Origin: Phycisphaerales bacterium
GTDB lineage: Bacteria; Planctomycetota; Phycisphaerae; Phycisphaerales; UBA1924
DNA: 64,000 nt
Direction of reading: 5' to 3'
Assembly (NCBI GenBank): GCA_022843045.1
Contig: JALHOJ010000008.1
Location: forward strand, 1-64,000
In this document: positions 10,967-13,900 of the stretch, one piece after another
Position numbering within the stretch: position 1 is the first letter of the stretch
Layout of the letters: each line of letters starts with the position of its first letter
The notes under the pieces: generated by a model
Databases searched by the model: none
Told to the model about the DNA's origin: nothing
The model's input: the letters and a program-made list of their open reading frames with translations, nothing else
Translations under genes and position numbers: made by a program

Positions 10967-13900
10967 ATGTCCCAAACATCTACCAATCTCCCCGAGTTGC
11001 CCAAGGCCTACAAGCCCAGCGAGCACGAGGATCGCGTCTGGAACCAGTGGATCGCCGCGAAGGCGTTTCTCGCCGACCCGCAGCGGGTGCTGCGTGATCA
11101 TGCCAAGCCTTACGCCGTGTTCATTCCGCCGCCCAACGTCACGGCGGCGTTGCACCTCGGCCACGCCCTCAACAACACGATCCAGGACATCCTGGTGCGG
11201 GCCCATCGCATGCGCGGGTACGAGGCCCTGTGGATGCCTGGAACCGACCACGCCGGGATCGCGACGCAGGCGGTGGTTGAGAAGCGCGTGATGAAGGAAG
11301 AGAAGAAGCGCCGCAGCGACTTCCAGCGCGACGAGTTTGTCGCCAAGATTCAGGCGTTCAAGGACGAGTATGAGGCGGTGATCACGGGCCAGCTTCAGAA
11401 GATGGGCTGTTCGTGTGACTGGGATCGCCAGCGGTTCACGATGGACGAGCAGTGTGCGGCGGCGGTGCGCGAGGCGTTCTTCCGCTTGTTCAGGGCCGGC
11501 CTGATCTACCGCGGCAAGCGCCTCGTCAACTGGGACCCGGTCTTGCAAACCGCCGTCGCCGACGACGAGTGCTACGACGAAGAAATCGACGGGCACTTTT
11601 ACTACTTGCGGTACCCGCTCGTGCACGCGCTCGCGCTGGAGCCGGGCGCGACCCGGGCCGGCGCGGGCAAGGGCCACACCCACGAGATCGATCCCAAGCC
11701 CGTGACCTGGGACGAACTCGCCTCGCGCGGGTATCCCGGCGCGAATGACCACCCGGCGGACCAACAGGCGTGGATCACGGTCGCGACCACCCGCCCCGAG
11801 ACGTACCTCGGCGATACCGCCGTGGCGATCAATCCGCATGATCCGCGGGCCACCGCGCTGCGTGGGTTATTTGTCGAGTTGCCGCTGGTGGGCCGCGTGA
11901 TTCCCATCGTCGAAGACAGCTACGTGGTGCTGCCCGAGCGGTATGCGCGGAACGATGAAGAGAAGAACGACCCCAAGGCCAAGATGGCGACCGGATTCCT
12001 CAAGGTGACGCCCGCGCACGATCCCAACGACTATGAGATCGGTATGCGGCATGGCTTGCCGATGGTGAACATGATGGGGCCCGATGGGCGCGTGAGCGAC
12101 AAGCACGGCTGGTCGGACGTGGGCGACGCGCACCTGCTGGTGGGCCTGCCGCGTGAGAAGGCGCGGGCGAAGGTGGTGGAGGAGTTCAAGGCGCGAACTG
12201 TGGGGACAGAAAGCCTGTTTGAGGGCAGCAAGCCCACGCGGCACAGCGTCAAGCACAGCGATCGCAGCAAGGCGATCGTGGAGCCGTACCTGAGCGATCA
12301 GTGGTATGTGCGGGTGACGGATCCGCGGATGGCGCAGGCGGCGAATGCGGTGCTGAAGAAGGCATCGGGCACTGGGCATCAGGCATCAGGAGATACAGAA
12401 GGCGGCGTGACGTTCTTCCCTGAGCGATACGCCAAGACCTACGAAGATTGGCACAACGGCATCCGCGACTGGTGCATCTCACGGCAGTTGTGGTGGGGGC
12501 ATCGGATTCCGGTTTGGAGCGGGCATTCCACGGGTGGATGGCAAGATGATCCGAATGACATCGGTCATCGAATCAAGAAATGGCAAGCCGAAGGCAGAGT
12601 GCAGTTGCAGCATCGCGTTGTCGAGTTGGCGGACGCGCTTTCCAAGTCAAACCCCTCAGAGGATTCTTTTGAGAGTGTGTGTGTGCGCTCACTTGATGAT
12701 GCTGAGGTGATTCAAGCGCTGGAAACCAACGGCTTCCATCAAGACCCCGACGTCCTCGACACTTGGTTCTCCTCTGCCCTCTGGCCGCTCAGCACGCTTG
12801 GTTGGCCCGATCCCTCGAAGTTCAACCCGCAGATGAACGCCGGGCTGCTGGAGGCGTTCAATCCCAGTCAGGTGCTGTGCACCGCCCGCGAGATCATCAC
12901 GTTGTGGGTGAGTCGGATGGTGATGTTCAATGGGTACCTCAAGGCACCAGGCACTGGGCATCCGGCACTAGCAAAGCCCGACGAAACTTCTGACGCCTCT
13001 GCCAGTGCCCAGTCCCTCCTGCCCAGTGCCTCTTCCGTTCCTTTTCACCACGTCTTCATCCACGCCGTGATCCAGGACGGCGAAGGCCGCAAGATGTCCA
13101 AGAGCCTGGGCAATGGCGTTGATCCGCTGGACATCATCGCGACGCACGGGGCCGACGCGATGCGGTTCACGCTTTGCCACATGGCGACCAACACGCAAGA
13201 CGTGCGGATGCCTGTGAAGAAGGATCCCTCGGGCAAGAACACCAGCGAGAAGTTTGATCTGGGCCGCAACTTCGCGACCAAGCTGTGGAATGCGAGCAAG
13301 TTTGCTCTGAGCATGATCGGAGCAAGAGACGAAGAGACGAAGAGAAGTAGAGACGAAGTGGGGGCGGGGGGTGGCGAGACTTCGTCTCTCCGTCTCTCCG
13401 TCTCTCCGTCTCTTCTGGATCGCTGGATGCTCTCCCGGCTCGCCAGCGGCTTCGCCGAGGTCGAGCACGCCCTCGCCAACTACGAGTTCCACGAGTACGC
13501 CCAGTCGCTGTACGACCTGCTCTGGCGGGACTTCTGCGATTGGTACTTGGAGGGCGTCAAGCCCACCATCGCGCAGAGCCCGGCACAGCAAGCCGTGCTT
13601 GGCAACGCTCTCAGCGCGATCGTGCGGATGCTGCACCCGGCGATGCCGTATGTCACGGAAGTGATCTGGGAGCACTTGGGCAAGGTGAAGATCGCGCGCG
13701 TGGATGGCGTGCGGCTTACGCACGACGATCGCTTCGCGCTCGACGACACGCTCAAGAGCCGCGTCGCGACGGGGCTGCTCTGCCATCAGGCCTGGCCTCA
13801 CGTCTCCAAGGCGCTGCGCGATGAGGCGGCGGAGAAGACGTTTGATCGCATGCGATCCCTCGTCACGATGATCCGCGACGTGCGCGCGACGCATCAGGTC

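Follow-up and report, generated by a model that had tools for sequence, protein, structure and literature searches.

An in-frame hairpin array in valS as a probable member of a dispersed repeat class whose words turn over faster than its sites

Tandem long simple repeats in Xanthomonas and Nostoc consist of G-rich heptamers (GGGAATC, GGGGAYT) that are mostly intergenic and, when two species are compared, for the most part separate the same genes, with variation in length and sequence; the Xanthomonas heptamers form 70-75 convergent inverted pairs and, near open reading frames, lie on the coding strand downstream of a stop and on the non-coding strand upstream of a start (PMC4692102). Cyanobacterial short tandemly repeated repetitive (STRR) heptamers are capable of hairpin formation near gene ends (PMC2670836), and one located within the RNase P RNA gene is reported (Vioque 1997). 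REP/BIME elements of the GTAG and CGTC families are palindromic and lie downstream of genes, with some located in repair, tRNA synthetase, and pseudouridine synthase genes, and two Xanthomonas species carry different REPs at approximately the same recB site (PMC3733652). Additionally, Rickettsia palindromic elements (RPEs) occur as in-frame palindromic repeats in many unrelated genes (PMC10969869), and in Beggiatoaceae, TAACTGA direct repeats form intergenic tandem arrays of a 7-nt unit adjoining start codons (PMC4679880).

The element considered here, F (13324-13414), lies inside valS in a window of 64,000 nucleotides, the whole stretch analysed, from contig JALHOJ010000008.1 of a Phycisphaerales bacterium (Table 1). 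Read directly, it consists of two convergent RAGAGACG arms, of about 5 and then 4 units, separated by a 19-nt loop: the left arm runs AAGAGACG AAGAGACG AAGAGAAG TAGAGACG AAGTG and the right arm TTCGTCTC TCCGTCTC TCCGTCTC TCCGTCTC TT, which confirms the four near-perfect inverted octamers described in the initial annotation. TRF detects both this array and the intergenic array A of the same window, and the predicted RNA fold of F is a hairpin of -54.5 kcal/mol (z -4.3 against shuffled sequence), that of A reaching -82.9 kcal/mol (z -2.85).

The valS product matches NCBIfam NF004349 (E 1.6e-277) and TIGR00422, and F is flanked by the Pfam catalytic domain (residues 123-846 of the 1207-residue open reading frame) and the anticodon-binding domain (916-1084). 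The frame opens at 10673, but alignment with relatives begins only at about residue 107, and the true start thus probably lies near 10967; the intervening stretch (10673-10966) is an open frame dense in ATCCGCG/CTCCGTGG repeat units (TRF 10860-10937), and the annotation may therefore over-extend valS. F is translated in frame within the hypervariable linker between the two domains, which measures 41 residues between fixed motifs here against a median of 27 in relatives, and sequence alignment to the Thermus thermophilus ValRS chain (1gax) places a far shorter loop at this position. Other ValRS linkers are filled differently: that of L033 carries both heptamer and octamer repeats, that of L025 a GGACACCT repeat, that of L039 an ACATCCG repeat, and that of the congener G012 a dispersed REP-like palindrome with about 8 occurrences in the G012 contigs compared. 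As can be read from the word itself, GAGACGRA arrays are free of stops in all six frames, which would make them tolerable inside genes.

Table 1. Features of the window, followed by genes with arrays at the same aligned position in the genome under study (G000) and its congener (G012)
Feature	Position	Strand	Description and basis
F left arm	13324..13363	+	About 5 RAGAGACG octamers, GAAGTG at end; sequence read, TRF, arm scan
F loop	13364..13382	.	G-rich, unique in genome, without canonical G-quadruplex motif; arm scan, BLAST/motif check
F right arm	13383..13414	-	4 inverted octamers YCGTCTCT; sequence read, TRF, arm scan
valS, valine--tRNA ligase, host of F	10967..14296	+	NCBIfam, Pfam, gene prediction, relatives
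A left arm	5085..5188	+	About 13 octamers; intergenic, convergent genes either side
A right arm	5285..5324	-	Short, mostly degenerate, about 1.5 clear octamers; read, arm scan, fold
mqnE-like gene	33639..35090	-	Aminofutalosine synthase best match, below cutoff; in-frame two-armed heptamer array
mqnE-like heptamer array	34058..34089	.	CGGGATT x4.6; TRF and comparison
mqnE-like opposing heptamer array	34201..34230	.	CGAATGC x4.3; TRF
RarA			G000 AAGAGACG; G012 AAAGTGGC; same aligned position
MBL hydrolase			G000 AAGAGACG; G012 AAGTACCG; same aligned position
Dus			G000 ACGGAGAG; G012 AAGTGACG; same aligned position
PcrA-like (PcrA/UvrD)			G000 AAGAGACG; G012 mix of GAGACGAA and GTACCGAA; same aligned position
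RluD-like			G000 AAGAGACG; G012 AACGAGCG; same aligned position
Two further genes on C1			Same aligned position, different words

The initial annotation had paired F with A on the basis of a common octamer, arm-loop junction and arm orientation, and had read this as common descent or copying rather than independent slippage. The word is indeed common to both, and the junctions are nearly identical (GAGACGAAGTGGGGGCGGGGGG in F, GAGACGAAGTGGGGGGAGGGGGG in A, the latter longer by one G), but these features are a family consensus and not a special pairing, the inner arm end RAGTG being general to the family, F and A included. Arm orientation is uninformative, as 19 of 19 close GAGACG-family arm pairs in the genome converge and none diverges within 600 bp. 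The expectation of further genomic copies was borne out, with about 53 places matching F by its arms. That F is a recent copy of A, or A of F, is highly improbable and was rejected: despite the identical word and the similar G-run after the arm, BLAST finds no match across the F loop at any other locus in the genome, the best other match of A is not F but C78/C122 (a 104-bp stretch at 90% identity), and G-runs after RAGTG also occur at C108, C3, and C26. When arms whose junction is clear are compared without gaps, the stretch that follows RAGTG in F agrees with C3:12715 at 13/18 positions and with A at 10/18. The link between F and A is thus supported as membership in one dispersed family, whose arms range from 2 to about 13 units; origin within such a family stands, copying between A and F does not, and slippage may still have contributed. 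A canonical G-quadruplex (four runs of at least 3 G) was likewise rejected, since only two-G patterns are present on either strand of F and A.

Throughout the 4.08 Mb of G000, the doubled word GAGACGRAGAGACGRA occurs as 115 exact 16-mers, against 0 in the control read backwards, and an arm scan returns 123 arms (112 at a stricter score) against 35 in the reversed genome. Of 121 family genomes, 32 contain the doubled form of this word, and three congeners have 1, 0, and 0 copies; the relatives found with ValRS place the group in Phycisphaerales. G000 carries further period-8 words (AAAGTGCG, GTGAGACG, AAGTGACG, ACAGAGCG, ACAGCGAT) together with period-7 words (AATGCCG, AAAAGCG, AATCCCG). Intergenic repeat periods peak at 7 and 8, and also at 14 and 16, with shuffles at approximately 0; lag-7 and lag-8 arrays between genes number 83 and 82 in G000 and 70 and 97 in G012, compared with 0-2 in shuffles. 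Such an excess between genes is a mark of long simple-repeat or STRR-like arrays, whose tandem units span 5-11 nt. The units of F and A are octamers, while the heptamers of the STRR and Xanthomonas type occur elsewhere in G000, so the two elements are classed as a variant of STRR-like arrays. No Rfam match in the window exceeds its gathering score, and a word-by-word literature search returned no relevant paper, its single match concerning human satellite DNA. The longest arrays are found at the ends of contigs or close to them (C78:1-98, C122:44-147, C6:86-141, C107:16-115), and copy number and array lengths are therefore probably underestimated in the assembly. Nested concentric palindromes were also observed at C16:43034, C24:23176, C119:6308, C54:8903, and C70:12864, combining within one spacer outer CACGGAG or GAGACG arms with inner GCGGATT...AATCCGC or CACAGAGG arms.

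The arrays obey a positional rule that holds for many words of period 7 and 8: the purine-rich strand reads outward from the gene edge, whether start or stop, and the arms converge. Independently of the word, the plus strand is purine-rich in arrays nearer the left gene and pyrimidine-rich in those nearer the right gene, in G012 as in G000, with odds ratios of 11-27 for both periods in both genomes (Fisher p 1.7e-7 to 3.5e-16); the genes were called with a purpose-built hexamer model, on which this edge polarity rests. Arrays within 10 bp of a gene edge are 1.8 to 2.3 times as frequent as under random placement within the same spacers, and single intergenic arms turn their outer end toward the nearer gene in 44 of 51 cases, typically 2-7 bp from the stop or start codon. 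Spacers with arrays are convergent in 12 cases and divergent in 2. The strand rule of Xanthomonas and Nostoc, with the coding strand after the stop and the non-coding strand before the start, is followed by these arrays. Several array loci (C6, C7:62396, C65, C114, C17) have in common a leader of the GTACCCTCCCCC-ATG type, in which a TAnnnT hexamer immediately precedes the start codon, and such leaders are possibly promoters of nearly leaderless genes.

Comparison with G012 covered about 2.65 Mb of its 3.7 Mb (contigs C1-C4, about 2.45 Mb, and 10-20-kb ends of the others) and yielded 1561 reciprocal-best protein pairs with a median identity of 59%. In-gene period-8 arrays occur in 32 and 21 of these orthologues in G000 and G012, respectively, and in both genomes for 9 of them, against 0.43 expected (p 5e-11); at control lags of 10 and 11, 0 of the 1561 carry arrays in both. 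In 7 of the 9 common genes the arrays occupy the same aligned position with different words (Table 1), and some G012 arrays mix words in register, as GAGACGAA with GTACCGAA. In-frame arrays occur in the protein linkers of ValRS, RarA, PcrA/UvrD, RluD-like, Dus, MqnE, and MBL hydrolase. Orthologous spacers likewise coincide under permutation within length strata, arrays of period 8 being common to 5 spacers where 1.5 are expected (p 0.007) and arrays of period 7 to 7 spacers where 2.5 are expected (p 0.004); at common intergenic sites, 8+8 agree in period and 3+3 differ, which is only suggestive of period conservation. The spacer at C71:4467, running from stop to start, holds two-armed arrays whose word differs between the two species (AAAAGCG against ACTAGGC), and at C5:38831 TTCGGTAC and TTCGTCTC take turns in register along the right arm of the G012 array. 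Many G000 array spacers are empty in G012, measuring -4 to 47 bp. In a carB-like gene at C7:17446, so named from its N-terminal sequence only, the G012 orthologue cleanly lacks a stretch of about 18 residues encoded by the array, which makes this a candidate for a recent insertion in frame.

The RarA site, directly after the motif VAV-S, could be read in 24 of 30 genomes and holds at one place the words AAGAGACG, AAAGTGGC, AAGGTGTC, GAGACGGA, GTGACGRA, and CAAAGAGC, as two-armed or single arrays. One of these, GAGACGGA, occurs in two genera (G093 and G052), and the heptamer GGCATTC is found in G107 and G050; four genomes have an insert-free linker of 21-22 residues, and G010 carries another, non-array palindrome. 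G000, G012, and G107, all of one genus, have three different arrays here, with period 7 against 8 within the genus. In the G012 orthologue of the mqnE-like gene, a heptamer array occupies the position of that in G000, and in many family genomes MqnE alignments split near residues 288-345, consistent with variable inserts.

Taken with their dispersal, polarity, and in-frame position, the occurrence of common sites with different words is best read as a long simple-repeat or STRR-like class of hairpin arrays in variant form, in which permissive sites are reoccupied as the word changes. F is probably a member of these dispersed inverted 7- and 8-nt arrays, which would be confined to a limited number of permissive sites, namely gene edges and flexible protein linkers, with words turning over much faster than sites. 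The word, here RAGAGACG, would be lineage-specific, relatives filling many of the same sites with others. Hairpin formation is likely the constraint at gene edges, where it may play a part in the formation of mRNA ends or in mRNA stability, while the arrays in proteins are likely tolerated rather than needed, and turnover at permissive sites is likely recurrent. Words may change by slippage, by copying between arms and between loci, by loss followed by re-insertion at the same sites, or by a combination of these: change in place is suggested by the mixed-word arrays, and re-insertion by single sites at which the words are unrelated or the period switches.

Two routes of turnover can be carried to their extremes. 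Ready-made hairpin arrays may have been inserted repeatedly and independently at a few hot spots (gene borders and surface linkers), the ancestral array being lost and replaced rather than converted, an explanation whose chances we place only a little short of even. The unrelated words at C71:4467, the presence of both periods and of the G010 palindrome at the RarA linker, the REP-like palindrome in the G012 ValRS linker, and relatives with empty sites all speak for it. Unrelated words and period switches, at RarA and between 7 and 8 within the genus, fit such insertion as well, and the ancestry of the arrays is thus not proven. Set against it are the arrays with two words mixed in register, the F loop common to no other locus, and the flanks, since 18 of 19 paired elements lack a clear target-site duplication and shared flanks average 4.5 nt against 3.8 nt when shuffled. 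The terminal inverted repeats and target-site duplication of a MITE are not found together as a rule, shared flanks of at least 7 nt occurring in 2 of 19 elements (C68 with 11 nt, A with 7 nt), and transposition with target duplication was rejected, there being a single clear case. That case, C68:5787-5929, is the sole paired element with a long direct repeat on both sides (AGAACCTCCGA, 11 nt), and its orthologous G012 spacer measures 23 bp. Rewriting in situ is doubtful: both arms and many sites would be converted to the current words of a lineage, through template switching between arms and loci or a word-specific copying factor, with the position, the inverted design and, for the most part, the period retained.

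The arrays could also have been selected as an intergenic RNA or DNA element: a hairpin, symmetric with respect to strand, would end or insulate the transcription that leaves a gene in either direction, and the copies inside genes would be by-catch that is tolerated. This explanation is plausible though we lean against it. Anchoring to starts and stops, a purine-first polarity regardless of the word in two genomes, hairpins succeeded by other hairpins in the same spacer, and the excess of convergent over divergent spacers agree with it; single arms, however, cannot form a hairpin and outnumber paired ones (51 against 22 intergenic arms with both distances known), and a terminator role is impossible for in-gene copies. 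The arrays resemble uptake-sequence dialects in forming inverted pairs at the ends of genes and in using words specific to a lineage. Nevertheless, a DNA uptake or other signal word of the USS/DUS kind, dispersed through recognition of the single word, is barely conceivable and was rejected, since single octamers outside arrays occur at Markov expectation (AAGAGACG 62 vs 52.7; AAGTGCGG 158 vs 158.3) and the genome-wide enrichment typical of DUS is absent. Very little likelihood attaches to the arrays being REP-type miniature elements moved by a tyrosine transposase (RAYT), although they are palindromic, dispersed, and intergenic and favour tandem and convergent spacers, the genome has two Y1_Tnp genes, and REPs are reported in comparable genes (PMC3733652). 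REPs flank a RAYT gene and need one in the genome, but both Y1_Tnp genes are bordered here by a different palindrome (TGTAGCCACGGGT) instead of octamer arrays, the array-rich relatives G086, G085, and G090 show no match to Y1_Tnp, and the unpaired GTAG tag is not seen; REP identity was rejected on the first two grounds. G086 yields 44 pattern hits but lacks a Y1_Tnp match, an absence that is not absolute as this genome is listed as 94% complete. The two RAYT-like genes, at C53:4663-5007 and C35:39600-39944 (L021, L022), have TGTAGCCACGGGT/ACCCGTGG and GCCCCGAAGGGGC palindromes alongside, which are a separate REP-like family.

Short intergenic repeats are usually regarded as slippage noise or mobile elements. 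Here, congeners approximately 59% identical in protein often keep a site, at gene borders or in the same codon region of conserved enzymes, while the word of both arms differs, which separates a possibly selected part, the hairpin or tolerant spot, from a drifting part, the word. The arrays provide natural replicates for how dispersed repeats evolve together and account for lineage-specific inserts in ValRS, RarA, PcrA-like, and MqnE-like proteins; rewriting in situ, if true, would make these dispersed, very short arrays a case of concerted evolution.

Among known systems, the Xanthomonas heptamers share with these arrays the strand rule and the convergent inverted pairs. Unlike the Xanthomonas and Nostoc repeats, the main word here is an octamer without the G3 runs of a G-quadruplex-capable repeat, many words coexist in each genome, whole words differ between congeners at a given site, and in-frame two-armed copies recur at orthologous protein linkers. 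Cyanobacterial STRRs differ from the present arrays, which comprise both octamers and heptamers, occur in Phycisphaerales, have a two-armed convergent design, and insert into proteins. REP/BIME elements are similar in being palindromic, in having some in-gene copies, and in the presence of different elements at one site, whereas the arrays here have tandem octamer arms, no unpaired GTAG tag, and no associated transposase genes. The Beggiatoaceae TAACTGA repeats consist of one word, mostly in one orientation, with almost no inverted pairs, unlike the arrays described here. As with RPEs, a palindromic repeat lies in frame in unrelated conserved genes, and in ValRS, RarA, PcrA-like, RluD-like, and other genes the sequence to either side of the array can be aligned between orthologues; an RPE measures about 150 bp and has a conserved peptide, whereas these arrays are short, with variable words and lengths.
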